From a virus, in IMG/VR virus record IMGVR_UViG_3300042906_000857, positions 108,158 through 172,157 of that record: a stretch of 64,000 nt of DNA; one strand, written 5' to 3'. The position numbers were made by a program, and so were the translations under genes. The notes below the pieces were generated by a model, which worked only from the letters and a program-made list of their open reading frames with translations, searched no databases and had not been told where the DNA came from. This document shows positions 19,055-41,300 of this stretch, one piece after another (the stretch's first letter is position 1; every line of letters begins with the position of its first letter).

Positions 19055-20539
19055 TTAGTATCGAATGACGATACGACCACCACCAGCCCAAGAAGTGCTG
19101 GCGTTTCCGCCTTGGCCAGCAGACCTGTTTGAAGCATTAACTGTACCTGATGCTCTGTCTGCATCAGCAGAATTACCTGGAGTACTAACACCTGTTCCAG
19201 CAATAAGTGATGTTGTACCAGTTAGTCCACCAATATAACCTGATCCTCCGCCACCTGCGGAATGTCCCCAGCTGCCGTTTCTACGGCCAGAACCGCCGCC
19301 ATAATAACCACCACCAGCACCGCCGCCGTATGTAACTGTACCGCCTGTTAATTGTCCGCCGTATGTGGTTTCACCTTCACCTCCTGGTGTACTCGAACCA
19401 CCGGCACTTTGCGTTCCGCCTTGGCCGCCAGTGCCTACTCCACCTGGGCCATGTCCTGCGGTACCTGTTGTACCACCACCATGACCACCGCCGCCTTGAA
19501 TTGAACCACCGCCACCGCCGCCAGCAGCAGCAATCACATTTGCAAATGCTGTACCACCACTAAACACATATGAACCACCGCCACCGCCGTGATCTTGACC
19601 ACCGCCCACACCGCCACCGAAACCACCTGCATCGTTGCCTGTGCCAGTGCCTTCTACAGAACCATAACCGCCACCACCTACTCGTAATGTGAATGTTTCT
19701 CCTGGTGTAACAGTTCTAAATCCACTTGCATAACCACCAGACCCACCAAATTCTGTAGTGCCAGCACCACCACCGCCAGCACCCCAAACTTTAAATTGTA
19801 CCGATGTTACTCCATCTGGAACTGTCCAAGTTTGATCTGCTCCACCGCCGACAGCAGGCATACCAAAAGCAACAACCACCGGTTCTGTTGTGACTGCAAT
19901 ACTAAAATTTCTATCAGTATCTTGGCCTTGACCATCTGTTGCTCGAATCGCAAAGTTGTATGTGGTTGAACCTGATACACCAGGTGCTGTTCCTGATATT
20001 ACACCTGTGTTGGCACTCAATGTCATTCCAGCAGGCAAAGTGCCAGAGTACAAACTGTATGTTACTGGTGCATCACCTGTTGCAACAACGGTTGTGTTTG
20101 CGTTTGCTGTGTTTCGTAAAACCGATAAGATTGAACCTGAAGCTGTTGTCCAAACTGGTGCAGGACTATAAATTATTCCCGGTACAGATAGTGTGGTACC
20201 ACCATCTGCATTGATGACGTATATGACATATGTACCAGTTGACAAAGCAGGTGTAACAAAGGTAATCAGTGTATCACCAACATAAGTTACAGTCGGTGCA
20301 GGAGTTGTTCCCACGACAACAGTAACACCAGCCGCAAAGCCTGTACCGTTCAAGGTGATTGTTTGTCCACCGCCCGTATCAGCAGCAGTATCATTTGATG
20401 GATAACCAATACTTGTTACCTTCAAAGCAGAAGTTGCTAACGAGTAAGCAGTATTAGCTTTATTATATACTCCAGGTGATAACACTGAGAAGTCTTGTGT
20501 GTTATCTAGTCCACTTGGTTGTATTTTTGTTAATGCCAT
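19055..20539 (-). CDS. fibre/adhesin with TIG and Ig-like head and glycine-rich tip
   Basis: A 494-residue putative receptor-binding protein. Residues 1-35 form a leader with NKANTAYSLA. Residues about 42-125 look like an IPT/TIG domain (GGQTITLNGTGF, then TYVIYVINADGGTT). Residues about 130-220 look like a cadherin/He_PIG-type Ig domain (YSLYSGTLPAGMTL, ANTGVISGTAP, IRATDGQGQDTDR). From about residue 225 to the end is a glycine-rich domain (FKVWGAGGGGAG, VGGGGYGS, many GGG runs) ending GGGRIVIRY. Such domains form polyglycine-II sandwiches in the adhesin gp38 of phages T2/S16; that fold is inferred here. Its head is closely similar to that of the next gene upstream. It ends the fibre island, just before gp13. 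Confidence 0.85.
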   Translation of the reverse strand: MALTKIQPSGLDNTQDFSVLSPGVYNKANTAYSLATSALKVTSIGYPSNDTAADTGGGQTITLNGTGFAAGVTVVVGTTPAPTVTYVGDTLITFVTPALSTGTYVIYVINADGGTTLSVPGIIYSPAPVWTTASGSILSVLRNTANANTTVVATGDAPVTYSLYSGTLPAGMTLSANTGVISGTAPGVSGSTTYNFAIRATDGQGQDTDRNFSIAVTTEPVVVAFGMPAVGGGADQTWTVPDGVTSVQFKVWGAGGGGAGTTEFGGSGGYASGFRTVTPGETFTLRVGGGGYGSVEGTGTGNDAGGFGGGVGGGQDHGGGGGSYVFSGGTAFANVIAAAGGGGGGSIQGGGGHGGGTTGTAGHGPGGVGTGGQGGTQSAGGSSTPGGEGETTYGGQLTGGTVTYGGGAGGGYYGGGSGRRNGSWGHSAGGGGSGYIGGLTGTTSLIAGTGVSTPGNSADADRASGTVNASNRSAGQGGNASTSWAGGGRIVIRY

Positions 20540-20554
20540 TTTTATTTTTCCTAA

Positions 20555-23500
20555 TTATTTTGTATAAAGAGCTTGTGCTGGTGGAGTGAATGTGGAGGTG
20601 TATCGTGCAACACCTTTGGTGATACGTAGGTCATCAATATAACCAGTAAAATAATTTCCAACATGACTGATGCCTACCTCTAACGATCCGGATGCACTAT
20701 AATTTCTAGCATCAGCTACGCTGCCGTCTAAAACCCCATTAACCCATAGTTTCACAGTTCCACTTTGTCGTGTAACTGCTATATGATACCATTGATTTGT
20801 GGAAAGTGATGTGGTACCAGTTAATAAATTAGCAGGTGTTTGCGGAGTTATAGTTCCCCATTGTAATTTATTTGCAGGTAATATATAAAGTGTCCATCCT
20901 ACACCATAACCAAACATAATTCCAGAGTCACTACCCAAACTACTCCATTTGATCCAACTTTCAATAGTAAAATCTCCTGTACCCCATGAAACGTTTTGAT
21001 TAGAAGGTGTAATCAAATAATCTCCAGTGCCGTCAAAGTACATAGCGCCTGTACCATATTTAACTGCAGCTGAAGAAACTTTTGAATCTGCAACAGTGGT
21101 ATAATTACTTTGCATGGATTGGTCTACAATACTAGCATTTGTTCCTCTGAGCAACAAAGCTGTAGTTTTGAGTACATTCAATGGTGTTGTATTTGGTGTA
21201 AAATTGCTTGAGTATAAACCTGTTTTTGTAATTCTAAGATCGGAAATATAACCATTGTACTGATAGTGTACAGTATTAACAGTATCATACCCAATATATA
21301 AAGGTAGGTCATTATCACTTGGTAAAGTTATTGAAGTGGGACCTGCTGCTGAGGTTCCATTAATGAAAATTCGTGCGGAACCAGCAACGCAAGAAAGTGC
21401 AACATGATACCATTGACCTGTTGTAATTGTTCCTGCCGAAGTTGCAATACCTGTACCTGGCCAAGCCGGGCCCGCTCCAATAATACCATTGGAAGATAAA
21501 GTAACCGTATAACTAGCAGGAGTATCATTTACGTTAAACATTAAAAATCTGCAAGGACCAGCGGGCAAAGCATTAACATACATATACAGTTCTATTGTCC
21601 AATTGCCGCCAGATAAATTAAATGCATTGGAAGTTGGCAAGGATAATCTATGTCCATTTATATACATAGAACCACCATGAATACTTGGAACATATCCCGT
21701 AGTAGTACCAAATGGTGAGAATCTGCTTACAGTTGTATCACCATTTTTAGTAACTACAAAATTATTAGTACTGTTGTCTTTAAAGTTATTAGATTGGCAA
21801 GTTAATAGACTCGTATTAGCAATTGCTGTTAGTGGTGTTGTACTTGGAGTAAACGCTGCAGTATAGAGTGCAGTACCTTTTACAATGCGGAGATTTGAAA
21901 TATTTCCTCTAAAATAACTGCCATCACTGTTATAGTTAGCGTAGTAAGTTCCAATGAATAGTGTACCGCCAGCACCAGCACCACTAAACGAATTTGTTGA
22001 ATAAACTGATACTCCGTTAACATACATGCTAAAGTTACTGCCGTATCTTACTGCGGCAATATGTGTCCAAGCATTATTTTGGATTACACTGACAGCAGAA
22101 GTATAAGTATTGGTCCAGCTCCAGTTTCCGGCAGGATTAGTCTGCCACATTAGGCTTCTATCATTGTTGATCTGCCAACTGTTCCAGGTTGAACTTCCAC
22201 CGGCACCTGATGTTAAAATAGTATTGTTACCGTTTGAAGTTACATAGACCCAACATTCAACAGTCCAATCTCCAGTACTGAGATTATAGTTAGAAGTAGC
22301 TGGAGTAGATAGATAAGCTGTTGTGCCATTAAAGTAGTTGCTCCAATTTGATCCGAACGGACTAAATGACCCTTGTGTTGGTGTGCCAGTATTGGTTATT
22401 GCAAGGTTATTTGGTCCTGAATCCACAAATATATTATTATTATTTGGTACTGGACTTTGTAAAGTTAGTAAACTTGTACCTGAAATTGCTGTTAGTGGAC
22501 TAGTTGGTGGTGTAAATGCTACAGTGTAAACTGCCGTACCTTTTACTATACGTAGGTTGGAGATGTAACCAAAAGTTCCGTATAAATTAGTACCATTCAT
22601 ACCACCAATATATCTAACATTTGCAGAGTTATTCAAATTTGTACTATTAGTTGCTGTACCTACTGATACACCATTAATATATAGTTTCATTGTTGTACCT
22701 GAACGTACAACAGCGATATGAGACCATACCTTCAATTGCAATCCCACACTAGAAACGATCCAGTTAGTTAAATCTCCACCAACAGAAATTCCTTGTGTAT
22801 AGTTCCAATAAATTTGTAAAGCACTATCGGTACCAGTTCTATAACCATAAAACATTTGATTAGTACTAGGTGTAGGTGTAGAGAGCGGAGCTTGAGTAGG
22901 ATTAATCCACATTTCAATAGTAAAATCACCTGTACCAAAATCATTCGCTGAACTAGCTGGTGTTGTCAAATAGTTACTTCCACTAAAACTTGTAGAACCT
23001 AGTGTAACAGAAGGTGTAGTTTCAAACGGAATTTTTTGTGAGACTGAAACACTAGTATTGGTAATTGCAAAAGCATTAGTACTATTATCTTTAATACGAT
23101 TATTTTGTAAAATTAAAAGACTTGTACCGGAAATTGCTGTTAGTGGTGTTGTGCTTGGTGTAAAGTTGGCTGTGTAAACTGCTGTGCCTTTAACAATTCT
23201 CAGGTCATGTAAGTTGCCTGACAAATTCATGTTTGTTCTGATATCGTGTCGACCTATACCAAAGCCACCATCACACAGTAAAGCTTGTCCTGCTGAGATT
23301 GCAGTATTTGATACCGATGTTCCGTTAATATAACACGTTACAGATGTTCCTTGACGAACATAAGCTACGTGTGTCCAAACACCTGCAGGTATTGTAACTG
23401 CAGGCGATATTGTAGCATTCAGTCTACTAAATGCAATTGTTGAACCACTACTAAAAGAGATTTGCCAAGCATCAGTAGCAGAAGTCCAGTATGGTGATGT

Positions 23501-24670
23501 TAATATAGCAGAACACATTACACCAGCATTAGTGCCATTCCCAATATTAAAAAAGTTAAATTCAATAGTAAAATCACCAGTACCAAAGCTGAGCGGACCA
23601 GTTGTTGCTGTATCTGTTATACTTAAATAACTACTACCATTAAAATAACCACTATATCTATCATTAAATGGTGTTAAGTTGGTTGCAGTTGGTGCCGCAA
23701 CCGGTGTCACCGCAAAGTTGTTTGTACTTGAATCTGTTGTATTGATAAAGGTATCACCAGATAATAATGCAGTTGTATTTTTGAAGTATGTGTCACCAGC
23801 AACACTCACTGTCCAATTTAATATCAGTGAAGAAGTTTTGTTTGTTACAGATGAAGTTGCTGTAACTAAGCTATTAATTGTCTGTGCTGTCGTTGGTGTT
23901 CCTGTAATCGTGTTACCCGAAATACTTAGTCCTGCTGGCAAAGAATTCGCAGAATACGTTATACTTTGACCAGAACCAGCATTCGCACTTAACGACAACA
24001 AAGTAGAAGCATCAACATACGCTTGCGTTGTTGTATTGTTTGCAGGACTTATCCATGTAACAACATCGGTATTAATTGTTATACTGAAACTTCTGTCTGT
24101 ATCTTGTTGTTGTCCATCAGTTGCACGAATAACAAAACTGTATGTGGTTGCACCATTACTTGCAGGAGCAGTTCCTGATATTAAACCTGTGTTGGCATTC
24201 AGTGTACTGCTTGTTGGTAATGTACCAGAAAACAAACTGTAAGTGACTGTTGCATCACCTGTGGCTGCCACATTTGAACTTATAGATGACGTTTCATATA
24301 CTGAAGCCAAACTGCCGGCAGCAGTTGTCCATGTTGGTGTTCCACTGTATGAAATACCTGGAATACTAATTGCTGTACCACCATCAGTGTTGATAACATA
24401 AAGTGTATATGTTCCTGCCGAAAGTACTGGAGCCGTAAATTCAATAGAAGTACTATTAACAACATTAACAACAGGCACATAGGCGCCGTTGATTAATATA
24501 TTTGCACCAGCATTGAAACCTGTACCAGTGATTGTAATGGTTTGACCGCCAGCAATATCCGCAGCCGTGTCATTACCTGGATAAGTAATTGCTGAGATTT
24601 TAGGTACACTGCTACCAAGTGCAGCCAGTGTGCCCTCTTGGATATTATCTGATGATATTTTTATTGTCAT
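20555..24670 (-). CDS. fibre/adhesin with TIG and Ig-like head and five LamG-like lectin domains
   Basis: A 1371-residue putative adhesin. Residues about 20-105 are an IPT/TIG-like domain and 110-205 a He_PIG-like Ig domain, both near copies of those in the adjacent 494-residue fibre. A further Ig-like segment with AGSGQSITYSANSLPAGLS is at about 205-300. Then five concanavalin/LamG-like domains start near residues 335, 555, 773, 997 and 1208. Each has the sequence F-x-G/F-D-G, G-D-F/W-T-I/V-E, W-x-H-V/I-A, and ends in L-R-I-x-K-G-x-A-x-Y-T-x-x-F-T-P with PLTAI-type linkers. This family binds glycans in other proteins. Carbohydrate binding on the host surface is the likely role. It has no transmembrane or signal sequence. 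Confidence 0.85.
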   Translation of the reverse strand: MTIKISSDNIQEGTLAALGSSVPKISAITYPGNDTAADIAGGQTITITGTGFNAGANILINGAYVPVVNVVNSTSIEFTAPVLSAGTYTLYVINTDGGTAISIPGISYSGTPTWTTAAGSLASVYETSSISSNVAATGDATVTYSLFSGTLPTSSTLNANTGLISGTAPASNGATTYSFVIRATDGQQQDTDRSFSITINTDVVTWISPANNTTTQAYVDASTLLSLSANAGSGQSITYSANSLPAGLSISGNTITGTPTTAQTINSLVTATSSVTNKTSSLILNWTVSVAGDTYFKNTTALLSGDTFINTTDSSTNNFAVTPVAAPTATNLTPFNDRYSGYFNGSSYLSITDTATTGPLSFGTGDFTIEFNFFNIGNGTNAGVMCSAILTSPYWTSATDAWQISFSSGSTIAFSRLNATISPAVTIPAGVWTHVAYVRQGTSVTCYINGTSVSNTAISAGQALLCDGGFGIGRHDIRTNMNLSGNLHDLRIVKGTAVYTANFTPSTTPLTAISGTSLLILQNNRIKDNSTNAFAITNTSVSVSQKIPFETTPSVTLGSTSFSGSNYLTTPASSANDFGTGDFTIEMWINPTQAPLSTPTPSTNQMFYGYRTGTDSALQIYWNYTQGISVGGDLTNWIVSSVGLQLKVWSHIAVVRSGTTMKLYINGVSVGTATNSTNLNNSANVRYIGGMNGTNLYGTFGYISNLRIVKGTAVYTVAFTPPTSPLTAISGTSLLTLQSPVPNNNNIFVDSGPNNLAITNTGTPTQGSFSPFGSNWSNYFNGTTAYLSTPATSNYNLSTGDWTVECWVYVTSNGNNTILTSGAGGSSTWNSWQINNDRSLMWQTNPAGNWSWTNTYTSAVSVIQNNAWTHIAAVRYGSNFSMYVNGVSVYSTNSFSGAGAGGTLFIGTYYANYNSDGSYFRGNISNLRIVKGTALYTAAFTPSTTPLTAIANTSLLTCQSNNFKDNSTNNFVVTKNGDTTVSRFSPFGTTTGYVPSIHGGSMYINGHRLSLPTSNAFNLSGGNWTIELYMYVNALPAGPCRFLMFNVNDTPASYTVTLSSNGIIGAGPAWPGTGIATSAGTITTGQWYHVALSCVAGSARIFINGTSAAGPTSITLPSDNDLPLYIGYDTVNTVHYQYNGYISDLRITKTGLYSSNFTPNTTPLNVLKTTALLLRGTNASIVDQSMQSNYTTVADSKVSSAAVKYGTGAMYFDGTGDYLITPSNQNVSWGTGDFTIESWIKWSSLGSDSGIMFGYGVGWTLYILPANKLQWGTITPQTPANLLTGTTSLSTNQWYHIAVTRQSGTVKLWVNGVLDGSVADARNYSASGSLEVGISHVGNYFTGYIDDLRITKGVARYTSTFTPPAQALYTK

Positions 24671-24729: not shown

Positions 24730-27700
24730 TTAAACATCACCTGTATTGGTAGATGGGTATGATCGATTTGTACCCCAAATAATTCTTACTGCGCCGCCAG
24801 CGCCTTTGCCTCTTGTACCACCACCTAGGCTTTGGCCGCCGCCGCCGCCACCGCCATATAATCCACCATTAGAATATGCTGAACCGATGAATCCAGTTTG
24901 GCCACCTGAACCGCCGCCACCAGCAGTGTGCCCCCCTGCTCGGCTGGTTCCATCAGGATCTCTATCCTGTTGGCCGGCTGCGCCATTATTGCCTTGGCCA
25001 TAAATTCCTACGCCGCCTCCGCCTGCGCCGTACCCAACGCCTATGTACTTGCCGCCACCGCCGCCTCCGCCGCCTCCGGATCCGGCGACACCGGTAAAGC
25101 TTGCTCGATATTGGGTTGTTTGAGGTTGCCACCCGCCAGTGCCGCCATTACCGGCATATCCACCAGCACCACCGCCGCCACCGCCTTCACCTTGTGCAGC
25201 ATATCCTCCTTGGCCTCCATTGCCGCCACCATCACCCAAAAACGTACCGCCGGCGGAAAGAAAATCGCTAAAGCCGCCGTCACCTGCTGCTCCGCCGCCG
25301 CCGTAAACTGTACTCATATCTAAAAAATAACTATTGCCTCCAGCCGTAGGAGCAACACCGGCGCCGTTGCCTCCAGCTCCCACCACTACGGTAATCACTT
25401 GGCCTGGAGTCACACTAACGTTTTTCCATCCTAAACCGCCACCTGCACCGCCGCCCTGGTTGCCGGTGCTTTTGCCTCCGCCGCCGCCTCCAACGCAAAC
25501 AACACTTACGCTAGTAACACCTTCATGTACAGTCCATGTATATGTTCCGGGAGTAGTCCATTCAATTTGACCAGGATCCGTGTAATAATTAAATGATGTG
25601 TTGTAGTCAAAGAAATTTAAAAAGTTACCAGGTTGCCAACTTGAAAAAGTCCAACCCAAATTATTTGAAACGTTAGTTGAATTTAAACCTGCATAAGCAG
25701 AAGCACCTTTAGCAAATGAATCTTGTATACTTAAATAATCAGTGTTTATTACTCCAACAGTTTTAACCAAATTGAATCTGGTACCTGATATTGAACTGTT
25801 TATTGTTACTAAGTTACCTGCTGTTCCGGATAAACTAAATGCGGATACAGTTGTTGTAGTTGCCGCAGTGAATGTAATCGTACAAGGTTGAACTGTGTCT
25901 GTTATATCACCAAATGTGTTTGAACCTGTGATAGTCAATGCACCTGCACCACCTTGAGATAGTATAGGATAAGTTGCACTAGCGCCTACAAATGTTTTAG
26001 CACTTGCAGAAGTCATGCTTATTGTAATTCCTGAACAAGTCCATCCTGTTGCACTAGCATTTGACCAAGCCGTAGCGCCTGAACCTGTGATTGTAAATAT
26101 AGAATTTGTACCAGTAATTGACCTTGTTAAACTTCCTGTAGAAGCAAAACTTCCACTGGTTAGATTGTACACATCCAATGCCAATGTTCCTAGTGTAGAA
26201 GTTGTGGCACCAGATATAATCAATGCACCAGCCAATGTTGCGGTGCCCGAACTATTAATAGTCAACGCAGCTAATGTTTTTCCATTAGGTGTAATTGTAC
26301 CTGTACCACGCATAGTTGCGGTTATACCGGTATAAGTGCCACCAATATCCAATATTAAACTATTAAGATTTAATGATGTTACTGTTGTAAATCCACCGGT
26401 ACATCCTGTGAAATCTAATATATTAAACCAACTACCTGAGGTTAACGTGGCTTGGTTTGCACCAGATATGAGAGATAGACTAGGTGCATTGGTTGATGTT
26501 CCACCTGTTGTACCAAATGTAAATGTTCTATTTTGTGCAGTATTCGAACTAAATTTTCCTGTGCCTGTCCAAGTAAAGTTGGTTGCATTGGCCATATCCA
26601 GCGCCGAGACAGTACCATTGCAAATAATTTGGCCTGTGCCAAATTGTATTTGTCTTACGTTGGCATTATTTGATACAAATGCGCCACCCGTTGTTAAATT
26701 AAAATTATTTAAATTTAATGTTCCGGATGTTAGTGTTGTTATTGCAGAAACTCCAAAGTTGTCAGCTAACGATACTATTTCTCCTGGATTATTAATCACA
26801 AAATTATTTAATGATGTATTTCCATTACTAGTAATTGTGCCTGTGCCTACTATATTCACACTTAGATTATTCCAACTAGTAGAATTCATTGTCAAAGCAT
26901 TTAAGTTTACAGTTGATGCAGGTATATAAGGAGTTGCAGTGCCGCCGCTCCAATTCAATTTATTAAACCAAGAACCTGTTGTCAATATTACATAATCTGA
27001 TGCACTTGATACTGTTAAATTTGGTGCGTTTGTTTTTGATCCACCAGTTGTACCAAATGTAAATGTTTTAATACTATTTGCTGTGACACTAGAATTGGTA
27101 AAACCACCTGTACCAGTCCAAGTGAAGTTGGTTGCAGTGGCCATCGACAACATCACTACACCACCAGTGGTGGAAACCATATTAACATTACCGGTGCCAA
27201 ATGCAATTGAACGCACATTAGTATTAGTTGATGCAAACGTATTTGTTCTTAGTGTAAAACCATTTAGTGTTAATGTACCCGAAGTCAATGTGGTTGCACC
27301 AGACGAATCAGCATTATCAATTAATGTTGTATTAACTGAGGCAATTGCTAAGGTTGCTATTTGTTTTGTGTTACTTGTAATAGAACCGGTTCCAACCATA
27401 GTTGGATTCAATGAACCATAAGTTCCTCCAGAAGCAAGTATCAATGTAATAACGTTTGTTGTGGCAACAGGTGAACAGGTACTACCTGTAAAATCAAGTG
27501 TATTAAACCAACTACCACTTGTTATTGTTGGTGCTTGTGAACCAGAAATTAATTTTAAAGTTGGAGCATTGGTTATTGTACCACCGGTTGTACCAAAAGT
27601 AAATGTTCTGGTCAATGTCATGTTAGAAACAAAATAACCGGTTCCAGACTTTGTGAATCCGGTTGCATTTGCAAAACTCAATACTGTTGTGCCAGCCGTG

Positions 27701-30700
27701 GTGTGTGCTAATACAATATTGTTAGTTCCAAAAGCAATTGACCGAGCAGTCGTTGTTGTAGAACTGAATATACCTGGTGTTAAATCTCCAGTACCTAAAG
27801 TTAATATACCACCGTTCAGTGTATAAGTACTCGTACCAGATAATGCCAAAACTTTATTTAAGGTTACATTACCTGCTGTTTGTGTAAAAGTATTTAATGT
27901 ATTTAATGTAGCCGTTCCATTGTAAGTGAAAGAACCCGGTGCTGTTGGTGCATTTACTACGAAAGAAGTATTACAAACTATGTTACCCGCAGTAAAGTTA
28001 AACTCACCATTTTGCACAACACTAAAAGTAGCTGTATTAATATTAATATTAGTTAAAGAATTTACTGGTGCTTGGGTGGAAAATGTTCCAGAACAAGTCA
28101 GAGTAAATGTATTACAATCAAGAATACCTAATACATGCGAACCTGCTGAACAAGTCACAGCGCTTAATAATGTTGTGGTTGTTGCACTAGAAGGATGTTG
28201 AATAGTTAAAACACCCACAGATTTACCATTGCCGGTTATGTTGCCAGCATCACGCATAGTAACATTCAAACTTGTATATGTTCCACCACTTGCTAATATT
28301 AAATTGTTAACGTTAACAGTTGATGATGCTGGCGTAGAAGTACTGCCCGTAAAATTCAATGTATTAAACCAAGAACCGTTTGTAAAGGTGGGTATCGCTG
28401 CACCAGATGTAATCGAAAGATTAGGTGCATTAACGGCAGTACCACCGGCAGTAGAACCAAATGTAAATGTTCTAGTAACTGACATTGCAGCAGTAAAGCC
28501 ACCAGTACCAGTCCAGGTGAATCCAGTAGCAGTTGCCATATTGATATTGACTGCACCGGCTGCAGTAGTTGACAATATGATATTGTTAGACCCAAAATTA
28601 ATTGCACGAGTATTTGTACTGCCTGAATCAAATGTACCAATGGTTAAATTATACCCGCCTAAATCTAATGTTCCGCTACTTAGATTACATAATGATGTTG
28701 CAATATAAGTTTGAGTACCATCTAGTGTCAATGTTCCGCCAGGTATATTTACTGAAAAACCAGCTAGTTGCTTGCTGAATTGAGCCGTCCAAGTTTGTGT
28801 TCTAGTAAATGACGGTGTTAAATTAGTATAAGTTCCGCCGGATGCCAATGTTAAAGTGCTAACTTGTACTATTGCGACTGCCGGGGTAGACGTAGTTCCT
28901 GTGAAGTTTAAATTGTTAAACCAACTATTAGTAGTTATTGTTATTATTGCTGCACCCGATGTAAAAGATAAATTAGGTGCATTAACGGTAGTACCACCAG
29001 TTGTACCAAATACAACTGTTCTTGGCACATCATAACCGGATCCCGCTGAACCGTCATTAGTAAAACCACCTGTGCCGGTCCAAGTAAAGTTGGTAGCATT
29101 GGCCATACTAAGTATTGTTGTAGTTGATGTGGTTGTATTTAATATAATATTATTAGAACCAAATACAATTGAACGTGTGTTAGTATTCGTTGAACTGAAT
29201 GTTCTTGCTTCAAAATCAAAACCACCCAAATTCAATGTGCCGGATGTTAGTGTGGTAACCGAACCCATAATTAAATTCTGTGTGCCGCCTAATGTAACTG
29301 TCGCATTATTGGTAACACCAAACCCACCTAATTGTTTACTGAACTGTGGTGTCCAAGTCTGTGTAGTATTAAATTGTGGTGCAAAACCTACTGTGTTATA
29401 TATTCCACCAGTTGCTAATACTAGTGTATTAACGTTGAATAAAGTTCCTGCTGGCGCACAAGTACTGCCTGTAAAATCTAATATATTGAAATAACTTCCG
29501 GCTGTCAGAGTCGGAACAGATGCACCACTTGTTATGAACAAATTGGTTGCGGTTGTGGAAGAACCACCAGTTGAAGTTCCAATTTGAAATGTTCTAGTCA
29601 CTGACATTATACTAGTGAAACCACCTGTACCAGTCCAAGAATAACCAGTGAGTGTTGCCATTGACAAAACAGTTTGTCCTGCTGTCGTATGCGCTAACGA
29701 AATGAAACCTGTACCAAACACAATATTCCGAGTGGAAGTAGAATTGGATGCAAATATACCTGTTGTTAAAGTATTGTTACCTAAATCTAATGTACCAGCA
29801 GTGTGTGTATAGGTACCTGTAGCCGTCAATGCATAATTTTTACCTAACGTTACTGTACCTGCTGTTTGTGTAAACGTTGGTACAGCAGACAACACAGCCG
29901 GACTATTATATGTAAAAGAACCGGTAGCTGAATTTACAAAACTTGTTGATGGTGTTATTGTTCCGTTATTGAAAGAGAAAGCACCATTGTTTGTAAACGT
30001 TGTACAAGTTATTGTTCCTACATTACTCAATGTGCCAGCCGTAAATGCCGCTGTACTTGAACAAGTTAAATTGAATGTTGCAAAATCAATGGTACCACTT
30101 GTTTGTGTATATGTTGTACATGCCAATGCACCAGCCAATGTCACAGTATTCAACACAGTTATATTACTAAATGCTGCAATAGTTTTACCATTAGGTGTAA
30201 TGGTGCCAGGTCCCGTATCAAAATCACGGCACTGAACAGACAAACTTGTGTATGTTCCACCAGATGCCAATATTAAACTACCTACGTTTACAGCAACCGC
30301 TGCTGGTATACAAGTACTGCCTGTAAAATCTAGTGTGCTGAATCCTGAACCGGCAGAAAATGTAGGTATCGATGCTCCAGCATTTATGAATAATCTTGGA
30401 TTATTGCCTTGAAATCCACAATTGAATGTTCTTGTCACCGACATATTGGCAGCAAAGCCGCCTGTACCAGTGAATGTGAAATTATTAGTTACTGCCATGG
30501 ACAATACTGTTGTGCCGGCCGTGGTGCTTGCTAATATAATATTATTAGAACCAAATGCAACCGAACGAACACCACCACCAGTTGAACTGAATATACCCGT
30601 AGTTAAATTGAAACCACCTAAATTTAATGCACCAGCAGTTAATGTATAAGTTCCTGTAACAGTACTTGGCAAAGTTGCATTAGCCGCTAATGTAACTGTA

Positions 30701-31959
30701 CCGTTAGTTTGTGTGAATGACGGTGTGGTTAGTGTACCAGCAGTATATGTAAATGATGCCGTTGCAGAATTGATTATAAATCCACCAGATGCAGTAATAG
30801 TACCTGATGTAAAATTCATTGCGGCCGAAGCACTCACAGTAAATGTAGTACATGAAATTGCACCAACACCAAAAGTAATAAATCCACCAGCGTGACTAAA
30901 TGCACCAGAACACGTTAACGTCTGCCCGTTTACTGCGAATGTTCCTGTATTAGTAGACAACAAAGAACACGTTGTTACAGCTAAATTATTTGATAGTGTT
31001 ACTGTACCGGAAGTATTAATGTTTAATGCGCTTATAGTTTTAGCAGCAGCATTAACAACATTTCCTGTACCAATCATGTTTGCAACAAGACCTGCTGGGT
31101 TACCGCCACCCGCAGTTATTGTCAATGTGCCGTATACGTTTACAGTATAACTTGGTGAACCTCCTATGGAACCATAATTGAGATTATTCCATGAACCATT
31201 TGCAGACATGGTTGGATTTTGTACACCTGCGCCAACGAAAGTTAAGTTTGGTGCGTTAGATGATGTTACACCTGTTGTTGGTGCGTTAATTGTGATTGAG
31301 AAACCATTATCGGTTACAAAGGCACCTGTACCGGTCCAAGAAAATCCTGTAAGGTTTGTCAGGTTTAATACAGTAGTTCCGTTTTGTACTGATGGTTGTG
31401 CATTAATATTACCTGAACCAAACGCAATAGAACGAGTATTTGTATTACTAGAAGAAAAACTATTTGTACTCCACGAAAAACCACCAAGGTCAAGTGCGCC
31501 GTTAGTTAGTGTGGTGGAATAATTTGATGCATTAACAGTGTCTCTCATGTTGTAACTACTGAGTAGTGTCCAACCTCCACCAACACCATTGAATACAACA
31601 TTACTTTCAACCCACAAACTGTTAGTGTTTATGGTATTTCCCGTGGTAGTTGCGAGAAAGTTAATGGTTGCTCTATTTTGCCAAGTTGCGCTAGCACCAA
31701 TTGTAGAGAAACTTCCATACACATTGAGTACTACATTAGAAGCACCTTGTACGTAAGGTGCACCGGCAGACATGTTGAGGTCCAAACAATTGATTGTTCC
31801 TGCCATGTTGACAAAATAACTGCCTGCTTGGTCAAAGAAAACGGAGTCTGCTGACGTAGGTACACTTGCACCACCGGCACCACCGCTTGTTGTTGACCAG
31901 TTGGTGGTGGTTGTAGCATCCCATGTACCAGTACCACCACGCCAATACCTATTAGCCAT
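24730..31959 (-). CDS. giant beta-repeat fibre protein with glycine-rich C-terminus
   Basis: A 2409-residue repetitive protein, the largest gene in the window. The N-terminus MANRYWRGGTGTWD followed by TTNWSTTSGGAGGASVPTSAD is a known start of phage and metagenomic beta-helix-type proteins. Residues about 130-2100 contain eight clear copies and one weak copy of a unit of roughly 170-260 residues with the order L-T-S-G-T-L-N-L-G-G-F, T-R-S-I-x-F-G-S-N-N-I, M-A-x-A-T-x-F-T-W-T-G-T-G, F-G-T-T-G-G, A-P-x-L, and W-F-N-x-L-x-F-T-G. They are rich in T, S, G and N with alternating hydrophobics, as in stacked beta-solenoids. The last about 270 residues are glycine-rich (YGGGGAAGDGG, GSGGGGGGGGG) ending GGAVRIIWGTNRSYP. 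An extended fibre with an adhesive tip is inferred. Confidence 0.82.
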   Translation of the reverse strand: MANRYWRGGTGTWDATTTTNWSTTSGGAGGASVPTSADSVFFDQAGSYFVNMAGTINCLDLNMSAGAPYVQGASNVVLNVYGSFSTIGASATWQNRATINFLATTTGNTINTNSLWVESNVVFNGVGGGWTLLSSYNMRDTVNASNYSTTLTNGALDLGGFSWSTNSFSSSNTNTRSIAFGSGNINAQPSVQNGTTVLNLTNLTGFSWTGTGAFVTDNGFSITINAPTTGVTSSNAPNLTFVGAGVQNPTMSANGSWNNLNYGSIGGSPSYTVNVYGTLTITAGGGNPAGLVANMIGTGNVVNAAAKTISALNINTSGTVTLSNNLAVTTCSLLSTNTGTFAVNGQTLTCSGAFSHAGGFITFGVGAISCTTFTVSASAAMNFTSGTITASGGFIINSATASFTYTAGTLTTPSFTQTNGTVTLAANATLPSTVTGTYTLTAGALNLGGFNLTTGIFSSTGGGVRSVAFGSNNIILASTTAGTTVLSMAVTNNFTFTGTGGFAANMSVTRTFNCGFQGNNPRLFINAGASIPTFSAGSGFSTLDFTGSTCIPAAVAVNVGSLILASGGTYTSLSVQCRDFDTGPGTITPNGKTIAAFSNITVLNTVTLAGALACTTYTQTSGTIDFATFNLTCSSTAAFTAGTLSNVGTITCTTFTNNGAFSFNNGTITPSTSFVNSATGSFTYNSPAVLSAVPTFTQTAGTVTLGKNYALTATGTYTHTAGTLDLGNNTLTTGIFASNSTSTRNIVFGTGFISLAHTTAGQTVLSMATLTGYSWTGTGGFTSIMSVTRTFQIGTSTGGSSTTATNLFITSGASVPTLTAGSYFNILDFTGSTCAPAGTLFNVNTLVLATGGIYNTVGFAPQFNTTQTWTPQFSKQLGGFGVTNNATVTLGGTQNLIMGSVTTLTSGTLNLGGFDFEARTFSSTNTNTRSIVFGSNNIILNTTTSTTTILSMANATNFTWTGTGGFTNDGSAGSGYDVPRTVVFGTTGGTTVNAPNLSFTSGAAIITITTNSWFNNLNFTGTTSTPAVAIVQVSTLTLASGGTYTNLTPSFTRTQTWTAQFSKQLAGFSVNIPGGTLTLDGTQTYIATSLCNLSSGTLDLGGYNLTIGTFDSGSTNTRAINFGSNNIILSTTAAGAVNINMATATGFTWTGTGGFTAAMSVTRTFTFGSTAGGTAVNAPNLSITSGAAIPTFTNGSWFNTLNFTGSTSTPASSTVNVNNLILASGGTYTSLNVTMRDAGNITGNGKSVGVLTIQHPSSATTTTLLSAVTCSAGSHVLGILDCNTFTLTCSGTFSTQAPVNSLTNININTATFSVVQNGEFNFTAGNIVCNTSFVVNAPTAPGSFTYNGTATLNTLNTFTQTAGNVTLNKVLALSGTSTYTLNGGILTLGTGDLTPGIFSSTTTTARSIAFGTNNIVLAHTTAGTTVLSFANATGFTKSGTGYFVSNMTLTRTFTFGTTGGTITNAPTLKLISGSQAPTITSGSWFNTLDFTGSTCSPVATTNVITLILASGGTYGSLNPTMVGTGSITSNTKQIATLAIASVNTTLIDNADSSGATTLTSGTLTLNGFTLRTNTFASTNTNVRSIAFGTGNVNMVSTTGGVVMLSMATATNFTWTGTGGFTNSSVTANSIKTFTFGTTGGSKTNAPNLTVSSASDYVILTTGSWFNKLNWSGGTATPYIPASTVNLNALTMNSTSWNNLSVNIVGTGTITSNGNTSLNNFVINNPGEIVSLADNFGVSAITTLTSGTLNLNNFNLTTGGAFVSNNANVRQIQFGTGQIICNGTVSALDMANATNFTWTGTGKFSSNTAQNRTFTFGTTGGTSTNAPSLSLISGANQATLTSGSWFNILDFTGCTGGFTTVTSLNLNSLILDIGGTYTGITATMRGTGTITPNGKTLAALTINSSGTATLAGALIISGATTSTLGTLALDVYNLTSGSFASTGSLTRSITGTNSIFTITGSGATAWSNASATGWTCSGITISMTSASAKTFVGASATYPILSQGGAGALTITGSNTFGDITDTVQPCTITFTAATTTTVSAFSLSGTAGNLVTINSSISGTRFNLVKTVGVINTDYLSIQDSFAKGASAYAGLNSTNVSNNLGWTFSSWQPGNFLNFFDYNTSFNYYTDPGQIEWTTPGTYTWTVHEGVTSVSVVCVGGGGGGKSTGNQGGGAGGGLGWKNVSVTPGQVITVVVGAGGNGAGVAPTAGGNSYFLDMSTVYGGGGAAGDGGFSDFLSAGGTFLGDGGGNGGQGGYAAQGEGGGGGGAGGYAGNGGTGGWQPQTTQYRASFTGVAGSGGGGGGGGGKYIGVGYGAGGGGVGIYGQGNNGAAGQQDRDPDGTSRAGGHTAGGGGSGGQTGFIGSAYSNGGLYGGGGGGGQSLGGGTRGKGAGGAVRIIWGTNRSYPSTNTGDV

Positions 31960-31962
31960 TCA

Positions 31963-32187
31963 TTATTCCTCTACGATTTCTGTGGGAACTTCCTCTGTAG
32001 GCATTGCGCTGATAACAGCTAACCAGTTGTCATATCTTTCTTGTTGCATTGTTGATATTTGTTCTGGTGTAGTTGCATCGTATTCTTCCTGAGTGAACCA
32101 TAGTGCATCTCTGTACACGGATGTTCCATCGGTCTTTTCGTAGATTACTTGAACTTTTCCATCAACTTGATTAATAATATCTTCCAT
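31963..32187 (-). CDS. small conserved fibre-cluster protein
   Basis: A 74-residue acidic protein (MEDIINQVDGKVQVIYEK, then YRDALWFTQEEYDATTPEQI and MQQERYDNWLAVI). The D-A-L-W-F-T-x-E-E-Y-x-x-x-T-P-E-Q-I pattern is a recurring small protein in the fibre regions of marine phages, as far as I recall, without known function. It has a helical acidic tail. It lies three bases from the start of the giant fibre and 21 bases after the LamG fibre, so it could be a fibre chaperone or adaptor; that is inference. T4 gp38 and gp57A are examples of small fibre chaperones. Confidence 0.78.
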   Translation of the reverse strand: MEDIINQVDGKVQVIYEKTDGTSVYRDALWFTQEEYDATTPEQISTMQQERYDNWLAVISAMPTEEVPTEIVEE

Positions 32188-32208: not shown

Positions 32209-33984
32209 TTAGAATCCAAAGTTTTTAGCTATCAATTGCCACTTTGTAGATATTGAATTGTATATGAATCCCATATAATCATATTTATTATTGGCGGAAG
32301 ATACTGTAGGTAAAATCATGTCGGTTGATCCAGCGAATACAGTATCCCACGAAAACGTTTGTACATTTGCGGATTGTAATCTGAGTATGATTTTTTGACC
32401 TTCTAATGGTGTACCGGAAGTTGCAACTGTTAGTGTACCGGCCAATTGTGTATTTGTTTGAATAACAATGTCTGATGTGTTTGCATTCATTGTTATTGTG
32501 GTTATATCAGCCACAGTGACAACTCTGACTACACCATTACCGCTGGTGGTGTTCGCTTTAACAAAAGCCGCATTGGCCTGTACAAAGGATGCATTGGCTG
32601 TATCTCTAGCATACGTATCTGTACCAGCACCACCAGAATTTGCTTGAGCATACGCCGCATTGGCTTGTATGAAAGCAGCATTGGCATATAACGCCGCTGA
32701 GTTCGCAATTTCCGGTGGTGTATTTGCTTGCAAGAACGCTGCATTGGCATATAACGATGCTGTTGCAGCATTGGATGTCGCAATATTTGCCTGAGCATAT
32801 GCAGCATTTATATAAGATGAATCCCATGTTGGTGACAAAGCACTACTGGTAGATGCACCAACGTTAGTTACGGTTGAATTATAAGGTGAACTATCAGTTA
32901 GGAAACCAGCACCGTTGACGGTACCTAATAACAAACTGGTGCCAGAACCAGTACTTGTTAGTGGTGAGGTTGGTGGAGTAAATGTACTGGTATAAACTGC
33001 TGTACCGTTGATAACACGTAAATTGGAAATATAACCAGCCACCGTTTGGCCAATTTTAATCGTGCTAGTAGGCGTTGGTATATTCGATGAGTCTGTGAAT
33101 GATGTTACAGGAAATGATCCAGGATTTGCTCCACTACCTAAAGATTGTTGAACTCCATTAACAAACAATCTGCAAGTGCTACCAGATCGAGTGAGTGCTA
33201 CGTGCTTCCAAGAACCAATTGCGGATGTTTGTGTGATATTACAACTCCATACAGAACCAACAGTTCCTGAATTGAGGGAAACTTGTAACTTGTTTCCAAA
33301 TCCATCATTACCAAAACGTATATCAAGACTGGTACCTGTTCTTGCTTGTGAGTATATAAAACGATATGCATCACCTGCCGCAGTTAGATAAAACCAAGAT
33401 TCTATCGTAAAATCACCTGTACCAAATGCAAACGCAGCATTTACTGGTACTGTTAAAGACTGAGTACTACCATTAAATGAAACACTACCCGATTCTGGTG
33501 GAGTTAAAACAAGTGCTGAATTTGCCCGATCAAACGATGCGTTTGCCTGAGCATATGATGAGTTAGCATACGAACCAGATGTTACTGCCTTATCATCAGC
33601 TGTTGCCGAATTGGTTGTAGCCGTATTTGCTTGAGTGTATGCCGCATTGGCATACGTGCCTGTCGTATTCTGTGAACTGTATGATGAATTGGCTTGTAAG
33701 AAGGATGCATTGGCTGTATCTCTAGCATACGTATCTGTACCAGCACCACCAGAATTTGCTTGTATGAAGGCTGCATTGGCTTGCAAGAACGCAGCATTAG
33801 CATATGAACTGGCTGCTGTTGCACCTGAACCAGAATTGGCTGCAACAAACGCCGCATTAGCCTGTAAGAATGAAGCATTGGCATATGCCGCTGCCGAGTT
33901 TGCAGTACCATATGCTGAACCTACAAACGATGAAAAATCATTTGATGAATCTAAGTTTGAAGGTTTTATTCTAATGAATGGCAT
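32209..33984 (-). CDS. fibre protein with heptad repeats flanking a LamG-like domain
   Basis: A 591-residue fibre. Residues 1-165 and 395-490 consist of heptad repeats of the form Y/Q-A-N-A-A-F-x, which are probably trimeric coiled-coil or similar shaft. Between them, at about 165-385, sits a LamG-like lectin domain (SGSVSFNGSSQSLTV, FGTGDFTIESWFY, WKHVALTRSGSTCRLFVNG, NLRVINGTAVYTSTFTPP). The C-terminal ~90 residues (VRVVTVADITTITMNANT, ILRLQSANVQTFSW, YDYMGFIYNSISTKW) form a beta-rich end domain common in marine phage fibres. A perfect 62-bp direct repeat brackets the LamG part (see that feature). Likely role is host-surface binding. Confidence 0.85.
   Translation of the reverse strand: MPFIRIKPSNLDSSNDFSSFVGSAYGTANSAAAYANASFLQANAAFVAANSGSGATAASSYANAAFLQANAAFIQANSGGAGTDTYARDTANASFLQANSSYSSQNTTGTYANAAYTQANTATTNSATADDKAVTSGSYANSSYAQANASFDRANSALVLTPPESGSVSFNGSTQSLTVPVNAAFAFGTGDFTIESWFYLTAAGDAYRFIYSQARTGTSLDIRFGNDGFGNKLQVSLNSGTVGSVWSCNITQTSAIGSWKHVALTRSGSTCRLFVNGVQQSLGSGANPGSFPVTSFTDSSNIPTPTSTIKIGQTVAGYISNLRVINGTAVYTSTFTPPTSPLTSTGSGTSLLLGTVNGAGFLTDSSPYNSTVTNVGASTSSALSPTWDSSYINAAYAQANIATSNAATASLYANAAFLQANTPPEIANSAALYANAAFIQANAAYAQANSGGAGTDTYARDTANASFVQANAAFVKANTTSGNGVVRVVTVADITTITMNANTSDIVIQTNTQLAGTLTVATSGTPLEGQKIILRLQSANVQTFSWDTVFAGSTDMILPTVSSANNKYDYMGFIYNSISTKWQLIAKNFGF
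32585..33762 (-). repeat. perfect 62-bp direct repeat bracketing a LamG domain
   Basis: Positions 32585-32646 and 33701-33762 are identical over 62 bases. Both encode the same peptide (QANSGGAGTDTYARDTANASF) in the same frame. The offset is 1116 bp, an exact multiple of three (372 codons), and the LamG domain lies in between. Recombination between the copies would delete the domain and leave an intact reading frame. Confidence 0.95.
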
Positions 33985-36302: not shown

Positions 36303-37163
36303 TTATCCTCCAAATACTATTGCCATCGCAATAGATTTTCCTGTTGTTACGCCGCCTGATGTGGTAACACTACCGCCAGCGCCAGTAAATTTCTTAACCA
36401 AGATATAATCATTTAATGCAGGTGCCTCAGACAATGTAATTATATTATTTGAACCTACAACGGTGTATGCCACATTTGGTTGCATGATACCGTTAATCGC
36501 AACAATTATACTGTTAGCATAAACATTCGATGATAGTGTGAATTGTGTTGTTGAACCGTTACCAATATATATGTCATCAACGATTGCGGTGTTTGCAGCG
36601 GGAGTACCGCCACCACCAGTATTTGCTTGAGCAAACGCAGCGTTAGCCTGAATGAAGGCTGCATTAGCATATAACAATGCTGCGTTTGCTACACCATATG
36701 CAGAGTTAGCATAAGAACCAGATGTGACTGCTTTACCATCTGCTGTTGCAGCATTAGTAGTTGCAGTATTTGCTTGTGTGTATGATGAATTGGCATATGA
36801 ACCTGCTGTGACTGCTTTACCATCTGCTGTTGCAGCATTAGTAGTTGCAGTATTTGCTTGTGTGTATGCAGAGTTAGCATATGTACCAGTTGTATTCTGT
36901 GATTCGTATGCCGAGTTTGCCTTTAGGAAAGCAGAATTGGCATATGAACTGGCCGCTGTTGCACCTGAACCTGAGTTTGCAACAGCGAAGGCCGCATTTG
37001 CCTGTATGAAGGCACCATTAGCATAGATTGCTGCTGATGTGGTATTCGCAGTTGAAATTGGTTGAGCTACTCTTTTCCAAGCATTATTTACGGAACTATA
37101 AACGTAAGTAATTCCATTTACAACCGCTGTTGCATTATTTGCTGGAGATACTGGAAAAGCCAT
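36303..37163 (-). CDS. heptad-repeat fibre protein
   Basis: A 286-residue fibre protein. The start MAFPVSPANNATAVVNGITYVY followed by AWKR is a short N-terminal beta module common to virion proteins. Residues about 45-195 are heptads of the kind Y-A-N-S-A-Y/F-x, Q-A-N-T-A-T-x and A-D-G-K-A-V-T. Residues about 200-270 form a beta domain (STTQFTLSSNVYANSIIVAINGIMQPN, followed by an I-T-L-S-E-A-P-A-L-N-D-Y segment) also found in two other fibres here. An 84-bp tandem repeat lies within the heptad region. A shaft with a small tip is the likely structure. Confidence 0.8.
   Translation of the reverse strand: MAFPVSPANNATAVVNGITYVYSSVNNAWKRVAQPISTANTTSAAIYANGAFIQANAAFAVANSGSGATAASSYANSAFLKANSAYESQNTTGTYANSAYTQANTATTNAATADGKAVTAGSYANSSYTQANTATTNAATADGKAVTSGSYANSAYGVANAALLYANAAFIQANAAFAQANTGGGGTPAANTAIVDDIYIGNGSTTQFTLSSNVYANSIIVAINGIMQPNVAYTVVGSNNIITLSEAPALNDYILVKKFTGAGGSVTTSGGVTTGKSIAMAIVFGG
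36723..36868 (-). repeat. tandem 84-bp repeat with 62-bp perfect copies
   Basis: Positions 36723-36784 and 36807-36868 are identical over 62 bases; the period is 84 bp or 28 residues (four heptads). The encoded unit runs from the QANTATTNAATADGKAVT heptads. Longer-range, more diverged copies of this unit recur in the 1100-residue fibre at 38370-41672. Confidence 0.95.
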
Positions 37164-38369: not shown

Positions 38370-41300
38370 TTAAATTCCTGATGTTAAAAATACTATCGAC
38401 CAATCAGTTGCACCTGATGATGTTGAGATAGTTGGTGTACTCTGTGAAGATAGTGCCGATGAGGTTATGTCAATCCAAACATTAGATGACCCATCATTTA
38501 TATATTCAAATAAAACATCATCGGTTAAAGAGTACCATTGGTCACCAACAGTTGGTGAACCTGGTGAATTATTGGATGCGGTAAATGTTATACCACCAGA
38601 TGCATTGGCTGCCGCAAAGGCCGCATTTGCAGTTATGTATGCTGAGTTCGCATAAGAACCAGCCGTTACCGCTTTTGAATCTGCCGTAGCAGCGTTCGTT
38701 ACACCAGTATTTGCCTGAGTATATGCATTGGTGGTGTATGTAATTACATCGTAACCATTTACTATTGCATAATTACTAATTAAATTACCTTTGAATACGT
38801 TACCATATACATTGGAATATGCAAAACTTGGATGTGCAATATTAATTAGATTATTCGATTCAACTTCTGGTGTATAATCTTGGAAGAATATCCATTCTTT
38901 TCTATTTGGATCACGTATAATACCAGTATGTGCATTGCCAGCATTGTTGTAATGTCCAATGATACCAATGTCAACCACATCACTTGTATAATTATTATTG
39001 GCTAGATATATTAATGAATCACCAACTTCTAATTGTGATGTGGTAATTGTTGTAGAATTACCAAGAATTGATAGGTTACCTTGTACAACCAAGTCTGTCG
39101 ATATGGTTAACGAACCTGTGATTGTTCCACCAGTTTTTGGTAGTGCGTTGTTTGCTACAGTGAAGGCTGCATTAGCATAACTTCCTGCTGAATTAGCAAA
39201 CGCAAAGGCCGCATTGGCATATGTGCCAGTCGTATTTTGACTATTGTACGCACCATTGGCCTGCAAGAAGGCACCATTGGCATATAATGCTGCTGAGTTT
39301 GCAACACCATATGCAGAGTTGGCATATGATCCGGATGTTACTGCCTTATCATCAGCTGTTGCGGCATTAGTAGTTGCAGTATTTGCCTGAGTGTATGCAC
39401 TATTAGCATAAGAACCAGCCGTAACCGCTTTACCGTCTGCTGTATTAGCTGCGGTGTACGCAGCATTAGCATATGTACCAGTCGTATTCTGTGAACCATA
39501 TGATGAGTTTGCTTTTAGGAACGCAGCATTAGCAGTGTCTCTGGCATACGTATCAGAAGATGCACTGCCACCAACAAGTGATAGTGTAGTGATATCAATC
39601 ACAGCATTACTTGCAGGTGTTCCTGTTGTTGTAACTACCGAACTCACAACGTTGTAAGAAGTGTGTAGTTGTAGAATACCATTGATGTTAACTATAACAT
39701 TGTTTGCATCTACAGGTGTTGTTGATAGTGTAAATGTATTTGAAGAACCGTTGGCAACAAACGTATCATTAATGATAGTTAAAGTACCTGAAACGGTTGA
39801 AATAGTAATAACATCAATCTTAGCATTGCTTGTTGGTACTGCTGACGTTACAATCGTATTGGTTATTACATTGTATGCATTTTTTAATTGAATAACACCA
39901 TCAATATTAACTATAACATTGTTTGCATTTTCTGGAGTTACGGACAATACGAATGTATTTGAAACACCATTAGCAGTAAACGAATCATATTTTACCGATA
40001 CTGTTCCTGTTATTGTGGTAATGTCAACTTTGGCATTACTTGCAGGTGTTCCTGATGTAGTAACTATTGAACTTGCGAGATTAAAAGAACTTATTAACTG
40101 CATAACACCATCAATGTTGACGATGATGTTGTTTGCTGATGCAGGAACTACTGATAGAGTAAATGTATTTGAAGAACCATTGGCCGTGAATACATCATTG
40201 GTAATTACTAACGAACCTGAACCTGAATTGGCCAAGTCATACGCAGCATTTGCTCGTAAGAATGCCGCATTGGCAGTACTTCTAGCGTATGCATCTGCAC
40301 TTGAACCACCAGTATTTGCCGCAGTAAATGCCGCATTAGCTTGGATGAATGCTGCATTGGCATATGACGATGAAGAATTTGCAACACCGTATGCGGAGTT
40401 AGCATAAGAACCTGCCGTAACCGCCTTACCGTCAGCCGTATTTGCTGCGGTGTATGCAGAGTTAGCATAAGAACCGGCAGCTGTGGAATCGGTTGCGGCA
40501 GTATTTGCTTGTGTATATGCCGAATTGGCATAACTACCAGCTGTTACCGCTTTCGAGTCTGCTGTTGCAGCATTAGTAGTTGCGGTATTTGCCTGAGTGT
40601 ATGCCGAATTGGCATATGTACCTGCTGTGACTGCCTTACCATCTGCTACCGAAGCGGCATTGGTTGCTGTCGTTGCATTAGTAGAAGCAATGTTTGCTAC
40701 ACTGAAAGCAGAATTTGCATATGAACCAGATGTTACTGCTTTACCATCTGCTGTATTGGCAGCAGTGTATGCTGAGTTAGCATAACTTCCTGATGTTACT
40801 GCCTTACCGTCAGCAGTGTTTGCTGCTGTGTATGCTGAGTTAGCATATGTGCCAGTTGTATTTTGAGAACCATATGCCGAGTTTGCCTTTAAGAAAGCAG
40901 AATTGGCATATGAACTGGCAGCTATCGCATTGAATTCTGAATTGGCCATCGCATAGGCCGCATTGGCGTGCAAGAACGCAGCATTAGCATATGATGATGC
41001 AGTTCCACCAACATCAAGTGCATTGTTGGCCACATTAAATGCGGCATTAGCATATAGACCTGATGTATTCTGTGAATCATAAGCAGAGTTTGCTTTCAGG
41101 AATGCAGAATTAGCATAAGAACTGGCTGCTGTTGCACCTGAACCGGAGTTAGCAGCAGTAAACGCAGCATTAGCCTGTAAGAACGCCGAGTTGGCGTATG
41201 AACCAGCCGAATTGGCAAAGTCTCTTGCAACACCGTCAGTAGATGTACCACCAGATAATGAATTAGCAAGTGAGAAGGCCGCATTGGCCTGTATAAATGA

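Follow-up and report, generated by a model that had tools for sequence, protein, structure and literature searches.

The gene at positions 24730 to 31959, on the minus strand of the DNA analysed here (a stretch of 64,000 nucleotides, hereafter 'the window', which is part of a virus record of 172,157 bases), probably encodes a virion receptor-binding fibre, or adhesin, of a T4-like phage, made of a beta-solenoid spacer and an exchangeable glycine-rich tip.

Architecture of the gene and its product

The open reading frame (ORF) starts with an ATG and codes for 2409 residues, in exact agreement with the coordinates and length first predicted; the strand, which had been left unstated, is the minus one for the gene and all its parts, and a plus-strand reading of 24730-31959 was ruled out, its translation being broken. 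The 7230 nucleotides make up 11.3% of the window (11 percent in the original prediction). The same 16.9 kb, identical except for one mismatch, is present on a second IMG/VR contig, which makes an assembly artefact unlikely. The protein is rich in Thr, Gly, Ser and Asn, as had been noted of its repeat unit; its charge is very low (Glu 0.3%, His 0.3%, Lys 0.9%, Arg 1.4%, Asp 1.9%).

The protein begins with an N-cap (residues 1-153, positions 31501-31959), which reads MANRYWRGGTGTWD..NWS..P..ADSVFFD and is kept in at least 568 IMG/VR loci. Eight repeat units follow, the number originally claimed, with eight motifs of the FTWTGTG type and eight of the RSIxFGSNNI type, the latter at residues 176, 465, 744, 929, about 1117, 1406, 1583 and 1769. 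The units lie at residues 154-442 (unit 1, positions 30634-31500), 443-721 (unit 2, 29797-30633), 722-906 (unit 3, 29242-29796), 907-1095 (unit 4, 28675-29241), 1096-1383 (unit 5, 27811-28674), 1384-1560 (unit 6, 27280-27810), 1561-1745 (unit 7, 26725-27279) and 1746-1923 (unit 8, 26191-26724). The unit length of 170-260 residues given at first was slightly off: five units are 177-189 aa long, and three (units 1, 2 and 5) reach 279-289 aa owing to an insert of about 100 aa in each. When aligned, the units have a core of about 175 residues with 17 invariant columns. Ungapped 40-residue segments of the protein, compared with one another using BLOSUM62, scored up to 167, whereas five composition-matched shuffles gave no score above 66; the repeats are therefore far above chance.

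An iterated profile detected a degenerate ninth copy at about residues 1924-2107, designated the C-cap (25639-26190; ..NTDYLSIQDS..GLNSTNVSNNLGWTF). Next come a segment with the aromatic motif PGNFLNFF (residues 2108-2125, positions 25585-25638, with GNFLNFF at residues 2111-2117) and the glycine-rich domain (residues 2126-2409, positions 24733-25584). The latter is the glycine-rich end of the original prediction, glycine accounting for 38% of the last 284 residues. With its N-cap, its profile-matching FTWTGTG/RSIxFGSNNI units and its C-cap, the protein has the parts by which the repeat family is defined.

Predicted fold and domain content

An AlphaFold2 model of residues 1-620, computed from the protein and 19 relatives, had a mean pLDDT of 89.1 and a pTM of 0.81, with 52% strand and no helix. 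This confident model predicts an all-beta solenoid. The best fold matches in the PDB, all weak, were beta-helix passengers and adhesins (EspC, EtpA, SepA, Hap, Hbp and Ag43); EspC came first (E = 0.012, probability 0.77) and no PDB match passed E = 0.001. Taken together, the model and these weak autotransporter-like matches bear out the likeness to beta-solenoids that had been noticed from the sequence. Among predicted viral proteins, nine fold matches passed 0.001, mostly unnamed phage proteins. One was named 'parallel beta-helix repeat'; another, A0A2H4FX04, is 925 residues long, and from this equal length is presumably the N-cap protein of Methylophilaceae phage P19250A described below. A second model, of residues 1747-2409, was confident up to about residue 2026, with pLDDT under 50 in the glycine-rich part. 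Coils of a beta-solenoid rise by 4.8 Angstrom each, so that about 1950 residues, at 20-29 per coil, would give a solenoid very roughly 30-50 nm long.

Scans of the whole protein against Pfam, PHROG and NCBIfam returned nothing relevant, and tail-fibre families (T4-like gp34 to gp37) were sought in PHROG with the whole protein and with the N-terminal 620 residues, with no family found. Only the glycine-rich part, once excised, gave matches: Gly_rich_2 (Pfam PF21722) on positions 24733-25572 (44.8 bits against a cut-off of 24.3, E = 2e-11) and phrog_4474 (2.5e-47). This domain had no match among PDB sequences. Related glycine-rich domains are present in three neighbouring genes.

Gene neighbourhood

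The solenoid gene is located between gp13/gp14-like neck genes and LamG, fibre and baseplate genes. One flank carries T4-like genes for the major capsid protein, portal, sheath, terminase, neck and tail sheath stabiliser; the other carries DUF4815 and baseplate protein genes. The block between the neck and baseplate sides consists of fibre-like genes with LamG, TIG, He_PIG, glycine-rich and Peptidase_S74 domains, and a position within such a tail-fibre block fits the very long fibre proposed originally; the other proposal made then, an unrecognised surface layer, received no support. The capsid protein is closest to that of Methylophilales phage Melnitz (65.7%), followed by Pelagibacter phage Mosig (64.9%). 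In Melnitz, the corresponding block beside the neck genes is annotated 'tail fiber', and a search of this phage for the N-cap found none.

Upstream of the solenoid gene is a fibre gene (32209-33984, minus strand) encoding 591 aa with a LamG-like domain, the last 106 residues of which (32212-32529) form a domain designated c106. A small ORF of 74 aa (31963-32187, minus strand; MEDIINQVDGKVQVIYEKTDG..), absent from the 80-aa ORF list, lies between the two genes and had no family match of note. A counterpart of 55-75 residues is usual at the corresponding site in relatives, between the c106 gene and the solenoid gene, and its product is a possible assembly helper.

Downstream, also on the minus strand, a member of the same cassette (20555-24670, 1371 aa) combines TIG, He_PIG and five Laminin_G_3 domains and is probably another lectin-like fibre. 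The product of 19055-20539 (minus strand) has TIG/He_PIG domains and a glycine-rich C-terminus (ALK_LTK_GRD, 1.1e-7) akin to that of the solenoid protein (BLAST 1e-34). A degenerate SYANSAFxxANAA repeat is common to the fibre-like proteins encoded on the minus strand at 38370-41672, 36303-37163 and 32209-33984. A separate gene, at 47144-51376, has matches to distal subunits of long tail fibres. Since the window thus encodes several other fibre-like proteins, with LamG, S74 or glycine-rich domains, binding to the receptor of the main host may be the task of a protein other than the solenoid one.

Relatives in metagenomes and isolates

The original prediction had known of no phage protein with this order, which proved wrong, and had proposed searching metagenomes for the repeat. 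When IMG/VR was searched once with a profile of the eight units, 55 loci of the repeat family were identified, with 1 to 28 units per ORF: dozens of environmental phages have the arrangement, and among isolates P19250A has the N-cap and the glycine-rich end in common with our protein. The largest complete repeat ORF encodes 7357 aa, which is exceptionally long for a phage protein (loci L061+L062, virus record G001, reverse strand, 11683-33756 of the reverse complement). It comprises an N-cap, 28 units, and LamG and glycine-rich domains, with a glycine-rich end, and is followed by a gene for a 97-aa C-cap. A separate C-cap gene of about 97 residues is likewise found just downstream of the solenoid gene in L006 (12521-12811), L009 (11109-11414), L015 (17523-17816), L017 (7156-7452), L018 and L019; in L009, L015 and L017-L019 the solenoid chain terminates in a glycine-rich domain, the C-cap being provided in trans. 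In L002/L003, LamG domains are inserted within the solenoid. In GTDB, the N-cap occurs on four genome contigs, L069-L072 (a Bacteroidetes MAG, Arthrobacter, a Gammaproteobacteria MAG and a Syntrophomonas MAG), and a search of GTDB genomes for repeat units found none.

A tblastn search of isolate phages with the whole protein, the units, the N-cap and the glycine-rich part gave no match. This does not indicate absence: an N-cap is encoded by P19250A, one of the isolates searched, and low-complexity filtering probably conceals relatives. The isolates were reached instead with two other queries, the c106 domain encoded upstream and the C-cap. In P19250A, gene 0021 (annotated 'PE family protein'; 925 aa) encodes an N-cap with 58% identity over 67 aa; directly before it lie the gene for a host specificity protein J and that for a 'tail fiber' carrying c106. 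A relative of the C-cap occurs in Limnohabitans phage DC31.

Association of the aromatic tail with c106

The c106 domain closes the gene immediately upstream in 24 of the 31 repeat-family loci inspected. Its best match reaches the last residue in 81 of 84 ORFs and stops one residue short in the remainder. In most relatives the aromatic motif forms a C-terminal tail, whereas in our protein it is internal, ahead of the fused glycine-rich domain. Among 81 distinct N-cap loci, which are related by descent, c106 was present upstream in 50 of the 51 with an aromatic tail and in 2 of the 30 without (Fisher P = 2.7e-18), for a tail pattern fixed after examples had been seen and with a trans-encoded C-cap bearing a tail counted as a tail. 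On a tree of the N-caps, examined for joint changes of tail and c106, there were 19 tail changes and 16 c106 changes, with 3 pairs on well-supported branches, a number too small to test the point. From these sequences we infer that c106 and the aromatic tail may be a docking or co-assembly pair.

An alternative ending, Q-x-P-x-W, was found in 13 cases, none with c106 upstream, which suggests a second type of mounting. N-cap proteins devoid of the aromatic tail (L079, L083, L094, L098, L131 and others) often have this ending and no upstream c106. Domains like c106 were also matched in 215 Mycobacterium phage records. In phage QBert (genes 110-111; L067 6518-7944), gp110 ends in a c106-like domain and the next product ends in ..EQNFFPLIAA. 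A weak match of c106 to CBM2 (E = 0.08) was left unused.

Apparent exchange, gain and loss of units

To judge from the sequences, exchange between phages and internal duplication both appear to occur. None of the nine units of our protein has its best match inside the protein itself, all nine being closest to another phage's protein; most units of L006 (9 of 10) and L007 (8 of 9), on the other hand, best match their own neighbours in the same protein. Loci L013 and L014 have flanking DNA that is 91-95% identical, and the solenoid of L013 is longer by some 209 aa, or about one unit. In L026, L029 and L044, identity is 94-96% at the N-cap, the C-cap and the upstream c106, and about 45-60% in the middle units. 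Constant ends with a variable middle are the pattern expected of host-range determinants.

Proposed role and alternatives

The mechanism that we propose is as follows. The N-cap would begin a beta-solenoid continued by the eight units and capped by the ninth, and this solenoid would act as a rigid spacer of the approximate length given above. The C-terminal glycine-rich domain would be the tip that contacts the receptor, working like the tips of S16/PP01 gp38 and Pam3 gp24. For assembly, the protein would probably join with the fibre protein encoded upstream, whose c106 is the likely partner of the C-cap and aromatic motif, and the 74-aa protein encoded between the two genes perhaps aids this assembly. 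Location in the virion, like the oligomeric state of the fibre, is something that we infer.

Such a fibre might instead decorate the head, neck or collar, sticking weakly to glycans or to the host surface and raising the encounter rate with no part in host choice. This would suit a gene near the neck genes, in a cassette with many such genes, with lectin-like LamG domains in its neighbours and inserted in its relatives. We consider it rather unlikely, as in P19250A the partner gene, annotated as a tail fibre, comes after the gene for host-specificity protein J, and as the middle units diversify between constant ends.

The fold matches to autotransporter passengers, and a weak PATR match in one relative, raise the possibility of a non-virion or expressed surface protein on the infected cell, autotransporter-like or forming a layer. 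However, the genes stand in the order known from virion structural genes, the N-terminus MANRYWRGG is, by eye, unlike a signal peptide, and no autotransporter barrel or family was found for the protein in Pfam, which makes this reading highly improbable. Least probable is an enzyme-bearing tailspike, in which the beta-helix would degrade capsule or another polysaccharide in the manner of pectate-lyase-type depolymerases. The beta-helix is the common depolymerase fold, and a PL6 alginate lyase and a tailspike are among the very weak fold matches. Yet searches of Pfam, NCBIfam, PHROG and the PDB found no enzyme family for the solenoid, a match that the original prediction had named as what would overturn it. 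Moreover, Asp, Glu, Lys, Arg and His together stay under 5%, and D38, in the N-cap, is the sole invariant acidic position among 20 relatives; a pectate-lyase-type tailspike would be expected to show a family match and a conserved acidic active site, and the invariant columns contain this one Asp.

A receptor-binding fibre with a solenoid spacer is of interest in that most proteins by which environmental freshwater phages recognise their hosts lack annotation. Pfam, NCBIfam and PHROGs fail to recognise the solenoid, and low-complexity filters easily mask the family, which is large; this amounts to a systematic blind spot. The range of 1 to 28 units suggests an adjustable reach, and the tail/c106 association supplies a testable rule for pairing adhesins with fibres; P19250A, an isolate with a Methylophilaceae host (IMCC19250), makes the family open to experiment. 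A broader reading, which we put forward as doubtful though conceivable, is that of a widespread undescribed attachment system. It would consist of exchangeable solenoid adhesins (the N-cap family, with its 568 or more loci and proteins of up to 7357 residues and 28 units) and a two-gene docking code, in which the aromatic tail, borne by the adhesin or by a separate C-cap, pairs with the upstream c106; spacer length and tip would then be swappable between phages.

Comparison with known systems

Beta-helix fibres and glycine-rich tips are already known as kinds of structure. In the libraries and literature searched, no description was found of the solenoid repeat, the N-cap superfamily, chains of up to 28 units or the c106/tail pairing; all four are apparently undescribed. 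The closest fold relatives include proteins from uncultured Caudovirales in BFVD (A0A6J5QXQ6, A0A6J5T8W4 and others), described as 'parallel beta-helix repeat' and matched with E values of 1.9e-21 to 1e-5 at 16-27% identity. P19250A_0021 resembles the family in its N-cap and glycine-rich distal part, and has an aromatic C-terminal tail of its own, GNFFFMF; it differs in being much shorter and in having no detected repeat unit, and no function was found reported for it. The autotransporter and TpsA beta-helix adhesins (EspC, EtpA, Hap, Ag43, Fap2) are likewise long beta-solenoids with repeats, several of them adhesive. Our protein, in contrast, is phage-encoded, with no secretion signal or barrel found, its sequence repeats are different and the fold match is weak.

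For the glycine-rich domain, the nearest parallels are phage proteins in which such domains are used for receptor binding. The tip of gp24 of the myocyanophage Pam3 is TNF-like and glycine-rich; it contains a GGGGxGG motif, and its distal end is hypervariable (PMC9608196). Gp38 of PP01/S16 forms a polyglycine II lattice with protruding receptor-recognition loops (PMC12892980). Motifs of the GGG type number ten in S16 and twelve in Pam3 (PMC9608196); the terminal domain of our protein has ten. By analogy with these domains, a receptor-binding tip is the likeliest role for it. The difference lies in what bears the tip: a small N-terminal attachment or a helical shaft in gp38 and gp24, and a beta-solenoid of about 2000 residues in the protein described here.
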